A DNA stretch of 58,813 bases from Verrucomicrobiota bacterium (lineage in GTDB: Bacteria; Verrucomicrobiota; Verrucomicrobiia; Chthoniobacterales; JAFAMB01), in contig JAFBAP010000053.1 of assembly GCA_019247695.1 (NCBI GenBank), positions 1-58,813 of the forward strand. Direction: 5' to 3'. The position numbers were made by a program, and so were the translations under genes. The first letter of the stretch is position 1. The number at the start of each line of letters is the position of its first letter. The notes beneath the pieces are model-generated. The model searched no databases. It saw nothing but the letters and a program-made list of their open reading frames with translations, and had not been told where the DNA came from. Positions 211 to 58,813 of this stretch are shown here, one piece after another.

Positions 211-252
211 GCCCCGGGTTCCTCAAAAAGGACCCCGGGGCTCTTTTTTTTC
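211..252 (+). terminator. Intrinsic terminator of the rRNA operon
   Basis: A GC-rich hairpin pairs GCCCCGGGTTCC (211-222) with GGACCCCGGGGC (230-241), including one G-T wobble, around a short A-rich loop. A run of T follows (243-252). It sits 8 nt past the 5S gene and is a classic Rho-independent terminator. Confidence 0.9.
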
Positions 253-668
253 ACACGGCGCCACGGCGACCACGGCGGGAGGAGAGGAATCACCCGCAGA
301 AGAACGCAGAAAAGAAAAAACATCCACAGATTACACAGATTGACACAGATTAAGGTGACACGGCGGCCGAAGCGGGTGTGGCGGGCACAACGTAAGAGTC
401 CACACGGCGACCACGGCTGGAAGAGGAAAGAGTTCGGCGTTCAAAACGGCATCCTAAGGGTCCCCTGTTGGCGTCAAGCTCGGGGCCTCAGCCTGAACCT
501 TCCCGGCCATCCCCTTAATCTGTGTAATCTGTGAATGTTTTTTTCTTTTCTGCGTTCTTCTGCGTGTTCTGCGGATGATTCCTCTCTTTCCGCCGTGGTC
601 GCCGTGGTTCGCCGTGTGAACTCTTACGTTGTGCCCGCCAAACCGCTTGCCCGCCGTGTGACCCGGCA
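253..668. repeat. Composite dispersed repeat, inverted pair (site R1)
   Basis: This stretch has no convincing gene. The left half (253-465) carries the CACGGCG-rich module A, then module B (CGCAGAAGAACGCAGAAAAG, then CCACAGATTACACAGATTGA), then a second copy of A. The right half (505-668) carries the same modules in inverse orientation (TTAATCTGTGTAATCTGTG, then CGCCGTGTGAACTCTTACG). The two halves form a long imperfect palindrome around a core at about 446-504. The same modules recur at 8404-8832, 16437-16651, 31627-32005, 53622-53834 and 58493-58813. Short ORFs read through them are artefacts. Confidence 0.85.
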
Positions 669-7609: not shown

Positions 7610-7618
7610 CGTTGCAAC

Positions 7619-7779
7619 GCCACAAATGGCACGAATGAAAAAGTGTCACAAACGCGATGAGGCTCCTCTACCTGGCCGCATGCTTGGGCCTGCGCCGCCG
7701 AGGTGTTTGGCCCAGCCGCCGGAACGCAATAAGTCGCGGACTCCGTTTGTCGCACTTTTTCGATCGTGCCATTTGTGGC
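7619..7779. repeat. Palindromic TGCCACAAATG-type element (site E1)
   Basis: The arms at 7619-7645 (starting GCCACAAATGGCACGA) and 7753-7779 (ending TCGTGCCATTTGTGGC) are inverted copies of about 27 bp with only a few mismatches. They flank a 107-bp centre. The element lies between the divergent channel and acetyltransferase genes. Related arms occur at 19271-19516, 48953-49286 and 58493-58515. An in-frame extension of the acetyltransferase ORF back to 7657 runs through this repeat and is unlikely to be coding. Confidence 0.7.
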
Positions 7780-7806: not shown

Positions 7807-8430
7807 ATGGGCTTGGCGCATGACTATCGTTCCCTCATCTTATTGGCCGGGGACCGTTACCGGCTCGTGCCGCTCGACTTGAGTTTTGACCAAATCTTTT
7901 TCGATCTAGTGGCGTCTTCGCGCCAGGAACTCAGCCATTCGTTCACGTGGTGCACTCCCGGCTACACGGTCGAGACTGCCAGAGCCTGGCTGCAAAGCCG
8001 GGAACGGGCCCGAGCGGAAGATCGAGCCTACGATTTCGTGATCACCCGGGCCGACAACGGAGAATTGGTCGGCGCGTGCGGGATTAACCAGATTCAGACC
8101 GAGCACCGGCTCGGCAATTTGTATTACTGGGTAGCCGCGGCCGAACAGGGACGAGGTGCGGCCACCGCGGGCGTTTCCAGCCTGGTCGAGTTCGGGCTTA
8201 AAGGTCTCGGTTTGATCCGTCTTGAGATGCTGGTGCCGGAACGCAATTTTAGCGCGGAACGGGTAGCTGAAAAGGTCGGTGCGACTCGTGAGGTGCTGCT
8301 GCGCAACCGGTTGATCCTGCAAGCGCGGGTCCAGCATGCCTACCTGTTTTCAGTTCTCGGTTCACCCGAAGCGCTCCTTTCCCCACCCGATCCCCGGTGG
8401 GAAAAGATCACGGTAACGGGTAACGGGTAA
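7807..8430 (+). CDS. GNAT-family N-acetyltransferase (RimJ/RimL-like)
   Basis: The 207-residue product resembles RimJ/RimL-type acetyltransferases, which move an acetyl group from acetyl-CoA to a protein N-terminus or small amine. The pattern DRYRLVPLD, then WLQSR, then FVITRADNGELVGACGI, then GNLYYWV and EQGRGAATAGV (the acetyl-CoA-binding motif A region), then LEMLVPERNFSAERVAEKVG is typical. Start Met7807 was chosen because the upstream in-frame part lies in a repeat element. The last residues (TVTGNG) and the TAA stop are encoded by a GGGTAAC heptamer array, so the natural C-terminus may have been replaced. The substrate is unknown. Confidence 0.82.
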   Translation: MGLAHDYRSLILLAGDRYRLVPLDLSFDQIFFDLVASSRQELSHSFTWCTPGYTVETARAWLQSRERARAEDRAYDFVITRADNGELVGACGINQIQTEHRLGNLYYWVAAAEQGRGAATAGVSSLVEFGLKGLGLIRLEMLVPERNFSAERVAEKVGATREVLLRNRLILQARVQHAYLFSVLGSPEALLSPPDPRWEKITVTGNG

Positions 8431-8832
8431 CGGGTGTCGGTCACACGGCGGGCACGGCGGGTGTGGCGGGCACGACGTAAGAGTTCACACGGTCACACCA
8501 CGGGCACCACGTAAGAGTTCACACGGCGAACACGGCGGGCCACGGCGACCACGGCGGGAAGAGGAAAGAGTTCGGAGTTCGGAGTTCGGAGTTCGGAGTT
8601 CGGAGTTCGGAGTTCGGAGTTCGGAGTTCGGAGTTCGGAGTTCGGAGCGGCAGGATGGGGGGTGGGTGCGAGTGTCAACCTTAGAGTTGCCGCCGGGTCC
8701 CCTTAATCTGTGTCAATCTGTGTAATCTGTGGATGTTTTCTCTTTTCTGCGTTCTTCTGCGCGTTCTGCGGATGATTTAATCTTTCCGCCGTGGCGCCGT
8801 GTGAGTCTTTTGCGCCGTGCCCGCGGTGTGAC
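8404..8832. repeat. Composite dispersed repeat with heptamer arrays (site R2)
   Basis: This gene-free stretch shows a full module order: GGGTAAC heptamers (8410-8444), CACGGCG module A with an internal duplication (8450-8560), a GAGTTCG heptamer array of about 11 copies (8568-8647), a core (about 8650-8700, GGGTGCGAGTGTCAAC), then module B in inverse orientation (8700-8780, TTAATCTGTGTCAATCTGTG) and a degraded inverse A (8790-8832). The same order and orientation occur at 58493-58813. Confidence 0.88.
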
Positions 8833-16431: not shown

Positions 16432-16436
16432 TCCCA

Positions 16437-16651
16437 CGGTCACACGGCGGACACAGCGGATTTGGCGGGCACGACGTAAGAGTTCACACGGCGAACACGG
16501 CAAGCCACGGCGACCACGGCGGTGGATTCGCAGAACACGCAGAACACGCAGAAAAGAGAAAACATCCACAGGTTACACAGATTAGGGGCACACGACGGGC
16601 GCGGCCGCTCCGAACTCCGAACTCCGAACTCCAAACGCCGAGCTCCGAACT
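16437..16651. repeat. Composite dispersed repeat (site R3)
   Basis: Module A (16440-16530; GCGGGCACGACGTAAGAG, CGAACACGGC), module B in direct orientation (16530-16590; CGCAGAAAAGAGAAAACATC) and a short CGAACTC heptamer array (about 16607-16651) fill the space between two convergent genes. The array touches the TAG stop (16652-16654) of the sugar dehydrogenase. Confidence 0.85.
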
Positions 16652-18007
16652 CTACCTGGCGCGGGCGAGCCGGTAGACGGTTCCGCTGTCGTCGTCGGAA
16701 ATGTAGAGTGCCCCATCCTTGCCCGGTTTGACGTCTACCGGCCGTCCCCAGACGTCCTGCGTGGCGTCGTCCAGCCACCCGGTTACCAAGTCAACCTGTG
16801 AGCCCGGCCGGCCATCGTGCGTCCAGGGAAAGTACGCGACCTTGTAACCGGTCTTCCGGGTCCGATCCCACGAGCCATGGTAGGCCGTCACCAGTCCATG
16901 CCGTACCTGTTCGGGAACATTGCTTGATTGCAGAAAGGCCATTCCGAGCGGGGCGGAATGCGCCTGGATGCCTTTATCCACCCGTGTAAAGGTCGATTCG
17001 GGAAAACGGCGCCAATCCGGATTGTTATCGTAGTCCGGGTCAAAGGGCATGTTATCCAAGCCGGAAGGGGTATCGGGATCGGGATTTGCAAAGGGCCAAC
17101 CGTAGTTGGCGCCGTCTTTGACGTGGATCAGCTCATCCGGCGGGTGATCGTCAACGTAGGAACTCAGGCGTTTGCCGTAGTCGTCGCCGTCACCCTGGCG
17201 CCAGGGCCGGTGGAAGGGGAACCGGATCTCGTCTCGCTCGTTGACGACGGCCCACAACTCGCCCGTACCGGGTAAAAAATCCAGGCCTTCGGCGTTCCGG
17301 ATGCCGCGAGCGAAAATCCGCCCGTGGCTACCGTCAAGATCATATTGGTAGATCGCGGAACGTACCGGGTTGCTGGTGGTGTCGGACGGGCTCGCGTTGG
17401 TGGCTGAAGCGACATCGACGTACAGCTTGTTGTCGGGCCCGATCGCCAGGTTCTTGAGTTCGTGCCCGTAAGCGCCGCCCAGTCCCGCACTGCTGGCATC
17501 CGGCAGGTTAGGTACGATCACTTCCCGGTTCGAGACCCTTTCGGAAGCCGGATCGTAGCGGAAACGCACAATCTCATTGCATTCACCGACGTAAAGGTAA
17601 GTGGCGCCGTCGATGTTCTTAAAGGCCATGCCTTGAGGCAGCCGGAGCCCGCTGGCGAGCAGTTGCACCGAGCGATCTCCGTCAAGCCGCACCAGCCAGA
17701 TCTTGCCGTGCGCCGGTTGGGAAACCAAAAGGTTCCCAGCCGGGGTGCCCATCAGAAAGCGGGCACGGGCGATTCGAGCAACCACCTCGATGATGAAGCC
17801 TTTGGGTACCCGCAGCCTTCGTTCCCGATCGAACGTACCCTCACGGAGTTCGGAAGGCACCTGCACCGGCACCGTTTCGAACGACAGCGGGTCGGCAGCC
17901 CTGGCGGGCAAGGTAACGGCCGGCAGCGCCATCGTTACCGCCCAGGTTACGCCAAACCAGTTCACAAAGCATCGCGGGAGAAGAGACGAAAGGGGTCGCA
18001 ACAGCAT
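16652..18007 (-). CDS. Exported PQQ-type sugar/sorbosone dehydrogenase-like protein
   Basis: The 451-residue protein has a signal peptide (to about 37) and a six-bladed propeller like soluble PQQ glucose/sorbosone dehydrogenases, which oxidise aldoses in the periplasm. Motifs include RVPKGFIIEVVARI, LPQGMAFKN, GHELKNLAIGPDNKLYV, FARGIRNAEGLDF, DGANYGWPF, AYHGSWDR and GRPVDVKPGKDGALYISDD. PQQ dependence is family inference; the cofactor residues were not all checked. ATG 18007 is preferred because an upstream in-frame start (18067) would overlap the divergent glycosyltransferase. The stop abuts a repeat array. Confidence 0.87.
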   Translation of the reverse strand: MLLRPLSSLLPRCFVNWFGVTWAVTMALPAVTLPARAADPLSFETVPVQVPSELREGTFDRERRLRVPKGFIIEVVARIARARFLMGTPAGNLLVSQPAHGKIWLVRLDGDRSVQLLASGLRLPQGMAFKNIDGATYLYVGECNEIVRFRYDPASERVSNREVIVPNLPDASSAGLGGAYGHELKNLAIGPDNKLYVDVASATNASPSDTTSNPVRSAIYQYDLDGSHGRIFARGIRNAEGLDFLPGTGELWAVVNERDEIRFPFHRPWRQGDGDDYGKRLSSYVDDHPPDELIHVKDGANYGWPFANPDPDTPSGLDNMPFDPDYDNNPDWRRFPESTFTRVDKGIQAHSAPLGMAFLQSSNVPEQVRHGLVTAYHGSWDRTRKTGYKVAYFPWTHDGRPGSQVDLVTGWLDDATQDVWGRPVDVKPGKDGALYISDDDSGTVYRLARAR

Positions 18008-18053: not shown

Positions 18054-19289
18054 ATGGCGATTTGCATCCGCTTCTATCCTTCGGTGATTTGCGTTTGGGT
18101 AAACAAGCGCGACTGGCGCCAACCGGGGCCGATCGTGAACGTCGGTCTGCGCAATGCGTACGCCCTTGCGGCGCTGGGGAAAGAAACTCACTTTTTTGTC
18201 GGTGCAGGACCGGCTTCCGAGACCGCCGGTGACCTGAAGGAATTCTATGGTCTGGATGCCAACCCGAACCTTCATATCCATCGGGTCGCGCGTACGGCGC
18301 TGCTCGCCCGGTGGGGGTTGCGCCCTGGTGAGACCAGCAGCGGCCCGATCTTTCGCCAGGCCGCCCGGTTTATCCGCACGTCAGTGAGCAACAATGCGGT
18401 GGTCGCGGTGATTACCCGGGAAGCTTCGTTCTTGCCGTACCTGGTTTGGCTCAAGGCATGGTGCGGCTCGCGCCTGCTTGGTTTCTATGAAGCTCATGAT
18501 TTTCATGGCGACCTTGCCTGGCGCCGCGCCCAGCGCTTGCCGGTCAGGAGCCAGGATGTACGCCAAAGCTGGCTGGAACGGTTATTTTTACCGTGGTTAG
18601 ACGGCGTGATCTGCATCACCGGCGCGCAACGGGACCTGTTTGCCGCCAGACAGAGCCGGTTGGCCATTTGCACGTTGCCGCTAGGCACCGACCCCGTTGA
18701 TGCGCCGCCTGTCGACCCCGAAACGCGCCGTGTCTTGCGACGGGCCGTCTACATCGGGCGCCTCTCCCGCGGCAAGGGCCGCGATCTGCTGCTGGCCGCG
18801 GCCCCGCAACTGGCGCGGGCCGGGATCAGACTGGCTTTCTGGGGCGGCAATTCCGAGCAGGCCGCCGCCCTGCAACGCCAGGCGGCCGATCAGGGCGTGG
18901 GCGCGTGGGTCGAAGTCATAAGTTCACGCCCGCCGGATGCGCTCGGCCGGGATCTGAGCGCGCGTGCCAGCGTCGGGCTGGCTCCGTTGGCCGATGACGC
19001 ATACAACCGTTACCTGACCTGCCCGGTGAAAGCGCTCGATTACCTGTCGCACAGTCTCCCGGTGGTCGCCAGCGACCTGCCTTCGACGCGAGAAGTGCTA
19101 GGTGATCAGGGCGCCGGCCGTTTCGTTCCGCCCGGCGATGCCGATACGCTCGCACGATCCATCATCGAACTGCTCGATGATGCCGCCGCCTACGCGGCCG
19201 CAACGCGCGCTGCGCACGCACGTGCCTGTGCGCTGGCCTGGCCCAAGCGCGGAGAACGACTGCTGGCCTTTATAGAATGCCAAAGATAA
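18054..19289 (+). CDS. GT4-like glycosyltransferase
   Basis: The 411-residue protein has the two-Rossmann layout of GT-B enzymes. The N-terminal half includes QPGPIVNVGLRNAYALAALG and GFYEAHDFHGDLAWRR. The C-terminal donor-binding half has AVYIGRLSRGKGRDLLLAAA, LAPLADDAYNRYLTCPVKALDYLSHSLPVVASDLPSTREVL, the usual GT4 nucleotide-sugar signature with Asp/Glu. It starts 46 bp from the divergent sugar dehydrogenase. An in-frame extension to 17703 would run antisense through that gene and is rejected. The stop TAA (19287-19289) lies within a palindromic repeat. The acceptor is unknown. Confidence 0.85.
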   Translation: MAICIRFYPSVICVWVNKRDWRQPGPIVNVGLRNAYALAALGKETHFFVGAGPASETAGDLKEFYGLDANPNLHIHRVARTALLARWGLRPGETSSGPIFRQAARFIRTSVSNNAVVAVITREASFLPYLVWLKAWCGSRLLGFYEAHDFHGDLAWRRAQRLPVRSQDVRQSWLERLFLPWLDGVICITGAQRDLFAARQSRLAICTLPLGTDPVDAPPVDPETRRVLRRAVYIGRLSRGKGRDLLLAAAPQLARAGIRLAFWGGNSEQAAALQRQAADQGVGAWVEVISSRPPDALGRDLSARASVGLAPLADDAYNRYLTCPVKALDYLSHSLPVVASDLPSTREVLGDQGAGRFVPPGDADTLARSIIELLDDAAAYAAATRAAHARACALAWPKRGERLLAFIECQR

Positions 19290-19516
19290 AATGCCACAAA
19301 TGACGGACTCCTACCTGCGGCATTCCCGGCCCCTTCGGCTCGTAGCGTCAGGGCAACGCTGCAAATGACGGAAGTAGGAGAGCACGCCACCGGCTGGCTT
19401 CTCTTCCATCTATGGCGTTCTTCCGCTTATAACATCTGCGGCATCCTAGACGTCCGTCATTTGTGGCATTTTTTTCACTTGTGGCATTTGTGGCATTTTA
19501 TCTTTGGCATTTTATA
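19271..19516. repeat. Palindromic element with 32-bp terminal inverted repeats (site E2)
   Basis: Arms at 19271-19302 and 19485-19516 are inverted copies matching at 31 of 32 positions, with AATGCCAAAGATAAAATGCC in the left arm. The interior has further TTTGTGGCATT copies. The whole 246-bp element sits between two convergent genes and contains the stop codons of both (19287-19289 plus strand, 19512-19514 minus strand). It contains no ORF of note and looks like a MITE or a bidirectional 3'-end element. Confidence 0.8.
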
Positions 19517-26842: not shown

Positions 26843-26960
26843 ATTCCTCAAAACAAAGGTCGCAGGCCGTTCTAAACCAAGGCCGCAGGCGGTTCTGCGG
26901 GCACGCGCGCCCAATTCGCACTTGATTTGATGCCCCGCCCGTCGAACATTGCCTGCTGCG

Positions 26961-30518: not shown

Positions 30519-31665
30519 AATCCGCGTTCTGCATTTGATCGACAGCCTGGACCTCGGGGGTGCCCAGACGTTGTTACTGGAGTGCCTGCCGCGCTTCGAT
30601 CAGGACGCCTATGATTTTACCCTCGCGACGTTTCATGCCAACCGGCGCACGGTTTTTCTCAAACGTGCCTGCCAGGCCGGGATCCACGTCACGGCGCTCT
30701 CCCCTTACCGAATCCTCCCGTTGTACGCGGTGACGTTGCCGGCCCTGCTGCTCAGCGGTGCTTTCGATATAGTCCACTGCCATCTGTATGCCTCAAACTG
30801 GTTGGGCAGACCGCTCGCACGCCTGCTGGGCGTTCCGGTCGTGGTCGGCCATGACCACTGCTTCGATGCGTTCCGGTTTCGCTTTCCCTGGCGACGGATG
30901 GACGCCTGGAGCGCCCGTTTTGCCGACGTTAATTTTGTGATCTCCTCATCCATCATACAACGGTTGGTGGAAGACGAGGGCCTCGAGCCAGCGCGGCTGG
31001 CGTTGCTGCCAAACGGGTTCGCCGCGTCGCCCGTCGCCCCTCGATCGAGCCGGTCCGGCGTAAACCGCGGCGAGCGGCGTGGGGCCCGCGCCGATTTCCG
31101 GTGGATAGGAGCAGCCGGACGTCTGGTCGGCTGGAAACGGTTCGACCGCTTTCTGGCCCTGGCGCAGGCGCTGTCGACCATCGATGACCGGTACCGGTTC
31201 GTCCTCGCCGGCGACGGACCGGCCGCAGCGCGACTGCACGCCATGGCAAAGCGGCTTGGTCTGGATGAACGCGTGGTGTGGCCCGGCGCGGTGCCGGCCT
31301 TGGACGGGCTGTTTGCCAACGTGGACGCCTTTGTCCTGACGTCAGATCTGGAAGACGTGCCGATGGTTTTGCTGGAGGCGTTTGCGCAGCGGGTCCCGAC
31401 CGCAACGATGGCCGTGAATGCGGAACGCCGAAAACTTTTTTGCGAAACGTTGTTGCTTGAGCCGGAGGCAACCCCCGAACGATGGGCACAAGACTTGGAT
31501 GCGCTTTTGCAGGACGCACCGCGACTCCGCCGGATGACCGACGAGGCGCACCGATCGTTAGCCGGCCGGTTCTCCCTTGATCGACAGGTGTCGGTGATTG
31601 ATGCCCATTACCGGCGCCTCATCACCACACGGCGGCCGCAGCGAGAGAAAGCGGGCACGACGTAA
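30505..31665 (+). CDS. GT4-family glycosyltransferase
   Basis: The 386-residue protein has GT-B organisation: RVLHLIDSLDLGGAQTLLLECLPRF at the N-terminus, IVHCHLYASNWLGR, then GAAGRLVGWKRFDRFLALAQAL, VLAGDGPAAARLHAMA, WPGAVPALDGLFANVDAFVLTSDLEDVPMVLLEAFA in the donor half. It overlaps the GT2 gene. The last residues (about TTRRPQREKAGTT) and the TAA are encoded by a copy of the CACGGCG repeat module, so the native C-terminus may have been replaced by the repeat. Confidence 0.9.
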   Translation: MMKRKIRVLHLIDSLDLGGAQTLLLECLPRFDQDAYDFTLATFHANRRTVFLKRACQAGIHVTALSPYRILPLYAVTLPALLLSGAFDIVHCHLYASNWLGRPLARLLGVPVVVGHDHCFDAFRFRFPWRRMDAWSARFADVNFVISSSIIQRLVEDEGLEPARLALLPNGFAASPVAPRSSRSGVNRGERRGARADFRWIGAAGRLVGWKRFDRFLALAQALSTIDDRYRFVLAGDGPAAARLHAMAKRLGLDERVVWPGAVPALDGLFANVDAFVLTSDLEDVPMVLLEAFAQRVPTATMAVNAERRKLFCETLLLEPEATPERWAQDLDALLQDAPRLRRMTDEAHRSLAGRFSLDRQVSVIDAHYRRLITTRRPQREKAGTT

Positions 31666-32005
31666 AAGTTCACACGGTCACACGGCGGCCGCAGCGAACT
31701 GGCGGGCACAACGACAGAGTTCACACGGCGAACACGGCGAGCCACGGCGACCACGGCGGGAAGACAAATGCCATAAATGAGGGCCGCCGGTTAGGCACGC
31801 CGGGAACCTATGCCGTCTTTGGCCCGGGGCGGCGGTTGGCAGTAACCGGGGACTTTAGTGAGCATTAATCTCGCCGCCCCGGGCCAAAGACGGCGTAATC
31901 CTTGCCGAGGTGCCGGGTAATTTTGTCTTTCCGCCGTGTTCGCCGTGGCTCGCCGTGTGAACTCTGTCGTTGTGCCCGCCTTTTCGCTGTGCCCGCCGTG
32001 TGACG
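31627..32005. repeat. Large palindromic composite repeat (site R4)
   Basis: The stretch lies between convergent genes. Module A occurs about one and a half times (31627-31765), then inversely at 31920-32005. The centre holds a perfect 23-bp inverted repeat (31812-31834 and 31872-31894) with the half GCCGTCTTTGGCCCGGGGC and a 37-nt spacer. The arms allow a very long hairpin in either strand's transcript. The left end supplies the GT4 stop codon and the right edge touches the stop of the minus-strand hexapeptide gene. Confidence 0.87.
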
Positions 32006-42441: not shown

Positions 42442-42668
42442 AGGCAGTGGCGAGTGGCGAGTGGCGAGCGCCGGGCGCCGATCGGAGCTCGGCGTTCGGC
42501 GTTCGGCGTTCGGCGTTCGGCGTTCGGAGTGGCATCCTGAGGATCGGGTGTGAGTGTCAAGTTCCGGGTTGGTGGGTCGCTCTCTGCTCTGCCTTTGTGA
42601 TCCGCAGAATGATTGAGCCCGGTTCTACGACGTCTCCGAACGCCGAACGCCGGACTCCGAACTTTACC
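42442..42668. repeat. Heptamer arrays and repeat core (site R5)
   Basis: Between the TPR gene and trpS are an imperfect GAGTGGC heptamer array (about 42446-42466) and a GGCGTTC array of about five copies (42491-42525). A version of the repeat core follows (42540-42575, GGGTGTGAGTGTCAAG), then CGAACGCCGAACGCC heptamers (about 42636-42660). The last array sits next to the TGA of the TPR gene. Confidence 0.78.
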
Positions 42669-44558: not shown

Positions 44559-44653
44559 TCAGAATCCTTGAAAGGCAAGAAAGCGATTACCGATGAGTCA
44601 AGTCTTTACGTACCACGCACTTCAAAGGAGAGGGGTTTTGCTTTTCAAGGCTT

Positions 44654-48952: not shown

Positions 48953-49286
48953 CAAAAATGCCGCAAATGGAAGAGAGTGGCGGGTAACGGGTAACGGGTA
49001 ACGGGTAACGGGTGTCGGGTGCCGGGCGTCGGGTCGAGTAAATGCCGCGGAGGGGTGACTTCGACGGCTCGTGCGCATGGCGTGGATTCCATAACTGGCG
49101 CTGAAGGACGGGCGGGCGGCGTCGAGGCCTCCAATCCTTCCCGGCATTTCTTCCTGGGCTGACGCGCGGCGCTCTCCACCGGGTACAACGTCGCCTTCTT
49201 CCACCCGACACCCGACACCCGTTACCCGTTACCCGCCACTCTCTTCCGCTTGCGGCATTTTTCCGCTTGTGGCATTTGTGGCATTT
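48953..49286. repeat. Palindromic composite with GGGTAAC heptamers (site R6)
   Basis: A TGCCGCAAATGGAAGAGAG element (48956-48980) leads into CGGGTAA heptamers (four perfect plus variants, 48981-49036). After a 170-nt centre come inverse heptamers (ACCCGTT/ACCCGAC, 49203-49237) and inverse CCACTCTCTTCCGC and TTTGTGGCATT units (49235-49286). It is thus a long imperfect palindrome between two plus-strand genes. An ORF reading through it to 49250 is rejected. Confidence 0.85.
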
Positions 49287-49303
49287 TCTTTAAGGATTTC
49301 CGA

Positions 49304-53621: not shown

Positions 53622-53834
53622 GTCATCCGCAGAACACGCAGACAACGCAGAAAAGGACAAAACGTCCACAGATTACACAGATTGACACAGATCAAGAGGA
53701 CCCCGGCGGCCCCCCCATACTTGGCAGCAACTCTGAAGTTGACACGGGCCTGTCGCACCCATGCTGCCGGGCCGAACGCCGAACCCCGAACTTTACTCGT
53801 TACCCGTTACGCGCTACGCGTTACGCGTTACTCC
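53622..53834. repeat. Composite dispersed repeat (site R7)
   Basis: Module B in direct orientation (53622-53690; CCGCAGAACACGCAG, CCACAGATTACACAGATTGA), the repeat core inverted (53697-53770; GCAACTCTGAAGTTGACAC), CGAACGC/CGAACCC heptamers and CGTTACx heptamers (53790-53834) follow each other. The array runs up to the start codon of the next gene. It begins 4 nt after the helicase stop. Confidence 0.85.
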
Positions 53835-58492: not shown

Positions 58493-58813
58493 GAAAATGC
58501 CACAAATGGAAGAGAGTGTCGGGTAACGGGTAACGGGTAACGGGTAACGGGTAACGGGTAACGGGTAACGGGTAACGGGTAACGGGTAACGGGTAACGGG
58601 TAACGGGTGTCGGGTCACACGGCGGGCACAGCGGGTTTGGCGGGCACGACGTAAGAGTTCACACGGCGAGCCACGGCGGGAAGAGGAGAGAGTTCGGGGT
58701 TCGGAGTTCGGAGTGGGGGGTGGGTGCGAGTCTCGGCCTTAGAGTTGCCGCCGGGTCCTCTTAATCTGTGTCAAGCTGTGTAATCTGTGGATGCTTTCCT
58801 CTTTTCTGCGTGT
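58493..58813. repeat. Composite dispersed repeat, edge of window (site R8)
   Basis: The order is: TGCCACAAATGGAAGAGAG (58499-58517), twelve perfect CGGGTAA heptamers (58520-58603) plus variants, module A (58612-58680), a short GAGTTCG array (about 58688-58711), the core (58712-58758, GGGTGCGAGTCTCGGC) and inverse module B (58760 to the edge). The arrangement and orientation equal site R2 (8404-8832). It probably continues past the right edge. Confidence 0.9.

Follow-up and report, generated by a model that had tools for sequence, protein, structure and literature searches.

Intervening sequences (IVSs) of 23S rRNA genes are known from Coxiella, Leptospira and other bacteria, where they carry an S23p/IVP ORF, form a stem and are sporadically spread, and their origin has been called unclear (PMC4990558). 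A part of the same paper, citing Lin 2006, describes the IVP family as a homopentameric ring. In the portion of PMC4692102 that covers them, cyanobacterial STRRs and Xanthomonas GGGAATC repeats are intergenic tandem heptamers, the latter often arranged as convergent inverted pairs, and that portion treats both as repeats or G-quadruplex sites and describes no gene enclosed by them. The part of PMC2700814 devoted to classes 1-3 of Geobacter metallireducens presents them as opposite-strand array pairs with variable spacing (4 × 8, 3 × 9 (TCTCCGTSY) and 5 × 7 nt), which are read as IHF/HU-type sites and, in that part, are given no link to IVP or GxxExxY. REP/REPIN sequences with RAYT are palindromic, intergenic and nonautonomous, and consist of conserved 20-40 bp single hairpins with a tetranucleotide tag (PMC3116915, PMC3733652). 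TAACTGA heptamers occur at scattered places in Beggiatoaceae as well as in other bacteria. In eukaryotes, the foldback (FB/TU) transposons have long inverted ends composed of short tandem repeats.

Here, we analyzed a contig (C53) of a Verrucomicrobiota genome (5.19 Mb, 191 contigs), hereafter the window, that is, the whole stretch of 58,813 nucleotides, together with a repeat site in it, R2. We consider that R2 and its kin are probably palindromic mobile elements, R2 being a nested, ORF-less member of an IVS-like class. The likeness to 23S rRNA IVSs lies in terminal inverted repeats that form a long stem, a PF05635 ORF and a sporadic distribution; the S23p/IVP ORF is absent at R2 itself but present in four sibling elements with the same arm types. 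On the other hand, the elements described here lie between protein genes or in ORFs, whereas IVSs are located in rRNA helices 9, 25 and 45, and they further differ from IVSs in their short-tandem-array arms, high copy number, frequent noncoding copies and GxxExxY as an alternative cargo. Their array pairs are similar to those of Geobacter in the part of PMC2700814 mentioned above, and STRR-type arrays flank IVP genes at 10 of 10 loci on cyanobacterial plasmids, in contrast with the treatment of STRRs in the corresponding portion of PMC4692102. REP/REPIN sequences share the palindromic, intergenic and nonautonomous copies, but the arms here are tandem arrays of variable sequence instead of hairpins with a GTAG/CGTC tag. 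With regard to MITEs, neither conserved terminal inverted repeats across copies nor a target duplication of constant length was found. Unlike FB/TU transposons, the present elements are bacterial, much smaller and associated with other proteins. In the open-licence literature, no paper was found that ties such arrays to IVP or GxxExxY, and the novelty of this link is provisional.

Repeat modules in the window and across the genome

R2 is noncoding, with no IVP ORF inside, and is made up of the following modules:

8411-8435, forward strand: outer arm H1, GGGTAAC heptamers
8442-8558, forward strand: arm A, CACGGCG-type, with 9-mers CACACGGCG/CACGGCGGG plus GGGCACGACGTAAGAGTTCACACGGCG
8568-8648, forward strand: inner arm H2, 11.4 perfect GAGTTCG heptamers (TRF)
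8649-8699, forward strand: core, GCGGCA...GGGTGCGAGTGTCAACCTTAGAGTTGCCGCC, with 81 copies in the genome
8703-8735, forward strand: module B, TTAATCTGTGTCAATCTGTGTAATCTGTGGATG, a 9-mer array (module map)
8742-8774, forward strand: module C, TTCTGCG, with the 9-mer-like TTTTCTGCGTTCTTCTGCGCGTTCTGCGG (module map)
8787-8832, reverse strand: right arm A', which is A inverted and closes the palindrome (inverted pair 8439-8459 / 8812-8832)

The R2 unit is palindromic because its right end is the inverted A arm, and the whole element had a fold z of -6.9 relative to shuffles. The other sites in the window are as follows:

252-667, forward strand: R1, A - C' - B' - A - H2 - centre (core variant CGGCATCCTAAGGG) - B - C - A', nested, fold z -6.3
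16436-16652, no strand assigned: R3, A - C' - B' - H2', spanning the interval from one stop codon to the other of a convergent gene pair
19270-19516, no strand assigned: R4, M - centre - M', a simple palindrome with arms ATGCCACAAATG, fold z -4.7
31626-32003, no strand assigned: R5, A - A - centre - A', the centre containing a long palindrome of its own, fold z -7.3
42443-42662, forward strand: R6, H2 - core variant - C/E remnants - H2'
48955-49288, no strand assigned: R7, M - H1 - centre - H1' - M', with one arm pair nested in the other, fold z -4.3
53624-53833, reverse strand: R7b, C' - B' - core' - H2' - H1', the order of R2 inverted and without A
58494-58813, forward strand: R8, M - H1 - A - H2 - core - B, truncated by the contig end at 58813

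An earlier note on this DNA had claimed that R2 and R8 share one order and orientation. The modules are indeed present at these positions: R8 follows the order of R2 from 58520, with the M module ATGCCACAAATG preceding at about 58494, and 214 of 224 ungapped columns were identical between the two sites (95.5%), with an alignment score of 159.5, whereas 200 shuffles reached at most 42.8. The order GGGTAAC, A, GAGTTCG, core and B that was given for R2 is also correct, but the inverted copy of A at the right end had been overlooked. Similarly, the common order of two sites 50 kb apart is real but not peculiar to them, since it is a genome-wide rule.

According to gene calls made with a simple codon-usage scorer, all sites in the window were intergenic, and none was found in an rRNA helix; R1 is downstream of the 5S gene and outside it. 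In the region 88-260, a terminator-like hairpin and a T-run come after this 5S rRNA gene, and R1 begins right after the T-run. An Rfam scan of the window detected the 5S rRNA and nothing else. Folding was far above shuffles at R1, R2 and R4-R7, but not at R3 and R7b, which are without paired arms. Inverted arms composed of tandemly repeated units of roughly 7 or 9 nt were seen directly at R4, R6 and R7 and as a nested composite at R2, and each layer also stands alone as a palindrome with its own centre: M at R4, A at R5, H2 at R6, and M and H1 at R7. A single copy of the R2-type core folded no better than shuffles and covariation support was absent among 62 sequences, so the possibility that the core is a conserved RNA structure was dropped. 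Some additional features were observed in the window, including a lone degenerate M arm (CCACAAATGGCACGAATGAAAAAGTGTCAC) between divergent genes at 7610-7656, which is better kept in the sister genome G001 (end of contig C354), a 23-bp sequence (AAACAAAGGCCGCAGGCCGTTCT) present twice in tandem just past a gene at 26851-26896 and unrelated to the modules, and an intergenic stretch at 44559-44653 that is about 75 bp longer than in G001 and has no repeat modules.

When the whole genome was searched with the core GGGTGCGAGTNTNNNCCTTAGAGTTG (up to three mismatches), 81 matches were obtained, compared with 0 for a reversed-pattern control; R2 as the query gave 98 matching pieces in 40 scored candidates of 505. 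Module order was counted in 65 core copies inspected together with their flanking sequence. H2 was directly to the left of the core in 61 of them and B directly to the right in 57, B was followed by C in 54, and the exact order A-H2-core-B-C occurred in 35. The right end of the core unit was an E box with inverted H2, or else inverted A. On the left side, M (ATGCCACAA) was outside H1 (GGGTAAC) in 5/5 cases and outside A in 5/5, H1 was outside A in 10/10 and outside H2 in 14/14, and A was outside H2 in 40/46; the right-side layers mirrored this order in fewer available cases. It should be noted that many contigs of these draft genomes end in the repeats and that array lengths may be collapsed.

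A fixed order throughout the genome, which the earlier note had set as a test, is thus borne out by the 81 cores and by the exact arrangement in more than half of the copies read. The linear modular mosaic it described holds with respect to this fixed order, but the modules are nested inverted arms and not a linear cassette, because the layer order is fixed, the right side mirrors the left, single layers form palindromes and the sites with paired arms fold. We also agree that the layout is not that of CRISPR or BOX and looks unlike REP: CRISPR is excluded by contiguous 7-mers lacking unique spacers and by the inverted pairs, BOX was set aside by its anatomy, and the arms are multi-copy arrays and not single short hairpins as in REP.

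IVP and GxxExxY genes between inverted arms

Outside this genome, module B was present elsewhere in the order (Chthoniobacterales relatives), often as inverted pairs, and 9-mer arrays of the CACAGATTA type formed inverted pairs with centres of 40-150 bp. In one of these relatives (L103), the centre between the 9-mer arms was a GxxExxY gene, and for this reason IVP and GxxExxY genes were surveyed for arms. To our knowledge, neither gene has an established role. IVP corresponds to PF05635, and the copy in genome G245 matched PDB 2gsc, which is XCC0516 of X. campestris (E 2e-25), as well as 2rld; its match to bAvd, a DGR protein, was weak. GxxExxY corresponds to PF13366 of the PD-(D/E)XK superfamily, and the PD...ELK residues are retained in the L151 copy, for which the top match among solved structures was T7 endonuclease I at a non-significant E of 0.16-0.9. 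Among the genomes sampled in the phylum of the window, IVP was found in 224/289 and GxxExxY in 52/115; no match to IVP was detected in 50,697 phage records.

Two GxxExxY genes (TIGR04256) are present in the genome containing R2, along with four 23S_rRNA_IVP four-helix-bundle genes (TIGR02436), and all six are between inverted arms (C'/C, A/A', H2/H2', H1-like in two cases, and M/M'). The earlier description of a dispersed element without coding capacity is therefore accurate with regard to its dispersal and to the noncoding R2, but not for the class, since the same arms enclose IVP and GxxExxY genes. Inverted arms, defined by a score of at least 13, were present at 28/34 IVP loci (mismatched-flank control 5.7%) and 31/32 GxxExxY loci (8.2%) of the same phylum and at 28/30 IVP loci in named genomes of other phyla, including Acidobacteriota, Planctomycetota, Bacteroidota and Gemmatimonadota (2.7%), some of the tested loci being best-scoring matches and not a random sample. 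All IVP loci pooled gave 56/64, with controls of 3-6%, and at the same loci only 3/164 pairs of segments placed off the cargo gene scored as inverted arms. On cyanobacterial plasmids, the ten IVP genes were between inverted heptamer-type arms without exception, and some of these elements were inside cas or ribonucleotide reductase gene clusters. IVP genes in Cas clusters (L368, L374 and L375) were seen between cas6 and cas4 in Anabaena sp. 90 and Pseudanabaena galeata and between cas10 and cmr3 in Picosynechococcus PCC 7003. The GxxExxY gene of Bacteroides finegoldii had arms of 3 × 9 nt; in Treponema, an 11-nt inverted match and nothing longer was found around this gene.

The mean self-identity of IVP arms was 0.61 and 0.58 at lags 7 and 14, respectively, compared with about 0.25 elsewhere, and the arms of GxxExxY genes peaked at lag 9 (0.37). 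A minority of IVP arms had a period of 6, 8, 9 or 10. Since the arm repeat changes from locus to locus (for example, GAGCTTG, AGTGGCT, TAGGCAT, AGGGATG and GGTCGAG), the period and the inversion are the conserved traits and the sequence is not. Three IVP loci of Vicinamibacteria and Gemmatimonadota (L355, L358 and L360) had inverted arms that were very long or composite, in some cases with units of 6 nt. Direct descent of the noncoding R2 centre from an ORF-bearing unit, including derivation of the core from IVP units, is unsupported, because the nucleotide profile of the core matched none of the six cargo loci of the genome significantly. By eye, the core and cargo units have a short box in common (GGCATCCT, GTGTCAAGTTC), which is insufficient to indicate kinship.

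Insertions, empty sites and turnover in relatives

Comparison of related genomes revealed clean insertions at the nucleotide level for IVP-bearing and noncoding relatives of R2, though not for R2 itself. An IVP element armed with GAGCTTA/GGAGCTT repeats splits a DNA methyltransferase gene of G245, whereas in G370, G351 and G345 this gene is uninterrupted; the site measures about 155-161 bp in G351 and G370 compared with about 910 in G245, where the right arm includes a 100-N gap. In G245, one frame is open through the methyltransferase and the heptamer arms (L254 36-2252; LELSKESLELSKE ... SSKLQAPSSKLQAP), again with the 100-N gap present. The IVP element between cas10 and cmr3 of Picosynechococcus PCC 7003 has an empty counterpart in PCC 7002 (about 92% identity). 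Empty counterparts were also seen for three sites of Nostoc plasmids. In these plasmids, the occupied site reads GGTTCTA / element / GTTATG and the empty site GGTTCTAGGTTATG, with TTCTA repeated. A site between TraM and a hypothetical gene was empty in three plasmids, occupied by the IVP element in two and, in ATCC 53789 pNsp_c, by a noncoding element whose arms are related to those of the IVP element. An element of about 289 bp in C057 p057_H, noncoding and with heptamer arms, had an empty site in UHCC 0926, with GTC repeated. Nested insertion was also observed: in strain N6, a noncoding element of about 182 bp, again with heptamer arms, lies within an IVP ORF, with flanks closely matching ATCC 53789 and no clear duplication. 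The target repeats were inconsistent in three resolved insertions of related elements (0-1, 3 and 5-6 bp).

At orthologous sites, the arms had turned over and a centre had been inverted. The R3 site is occupied in the sister genome G001, from a second species of the same genus, by a different module mix, and at R6 the centre is inverted in G001, with an extra A/A' pair outside that is present in G001 alone of the two species. No empty site was found for the R2-type core element, R3 and R6 being occupied in both species, and at R2 itself the G001 contigs end on both sides of the site. With respect to the check for empty sites in relatives that the earlier note had suggested, clean empty sites were found for related IVP-bearing and noncoding elements, but R3 and R6 were occupied and rearranged.

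Possible routes of movement and remodelling

By their anatomy, the elements may be regarded as 23S rRNA-type IVS elements placed between genes. One unit consists of a left arm, which is a 7-nt array or some three 9-nt repeats, followed by a centre and by an inverted copy of this arm; the centre is an IVP gene, a GxxExxY nuclease-family gene or, as at R2, noncoding sequence. R2 is a composite of nested units, with H1 around A around H2-core-B-C, and such nested composites (R1 and R2) might arise by insertion into existing elements. ORF-bearing units may supply IVP and/or the nuclease and ORF-less units may move in trans, so that any centre could be moved or converted if the arms suit. The repeat arrays might serve as multivalent binding sites for a pentameric IVP and as portable homology. 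The two arms could be kept alike by slippage together with cruciform template switching or gene conversion, and these processes might also swap or invert centres, as seen at R6.

Several other explanations should be considered. The elements might be MITE/REPIN-like sequences moved by an unlinked conventional transposase (for example, RAYT or IS), with IVP and GxxExxY as passengers. Their inverted ends, intergenic scatter, noncoding majority and clean insertions fit this idea, but the arm repeat changes by locus while period and inversion stay, no TIR is conserved, the length of the target duplication is not constant, and the single-hairpin organisation of REP was not seen, which makes it unlikely. 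We consider equally unlikely an RNA-level IVS whose transcribed hairpin is cut by RNase III and re-inserted via reverse transcription. The ORF family and the stem anatomy are as in 23S IVSs (PMC4990558), the strong folds at R1, R2 and R4-R7 would suit a transcribed hairpin, and IVP weakly matches bAvd, a DGR accessory protein. However, elements are found in either orientation and also where two genes converge, between their stop codons, and movement driven by reverse transcriptase in this genome is disfavoured because the sole reverse transcriptase locus found (L297/L298, G000:C164:16892-17523) has a broken frame.

Movement may also not be needed at all if the arms form in situ at the ends of genes, through replication slippage combined with template switching at quasi-palindromes, and have a function in termination or in mRNA stabilisation. 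Sites just past stop codons, variable heptamer numbers, co-varying arms and the turnover of content at the fixed sites R3 and R6 agree with this scenario, which nevertheless appears improbable in view of 81 near-alike cores across the genome and of the empty sites and ORF insertions in relatives, and is weakened by the N6 insertion within an IVP ORF. Even less probable, by a little, is a role in binding a nucleoid protein or a global regulator, which was suggested for Geobacter metallireducens, where the relevant part of PMC2700814 describes the same paired array anatomy; this leaves the IVP and GxxExxY cargo, the nested composites and the locus-specific repeats unexplained.

Returning to mobile, IVS-like palindromes as the preferred reading, a broader and more tentative proposal is that they belong to an unrecognised bacterial mobile superfamily, in which IVP (heptamer) and GxxExxY (nonamer) might recognise, move and remodel inverted arrays; STRRs, Xanthomonas GGGAATC repeats, Geobacter arrays and rRNA IVSs could be parts of it, and R2-like units its nonautonomous bulk. 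One anatomy and a testable protein link join heptamer repeats, paired nonamer arrays and rRNA IVSs of unclear origin, and the presence of nearly all tested IVP and GxxExxY copies inside inverted arms points to what to test. The elements also break up operons (Cas, ribonucleotide reductase) and genes. If a protein ring or a nuclease recognises arms of free sequence and fixed period, this would be an unusual recognition rule.
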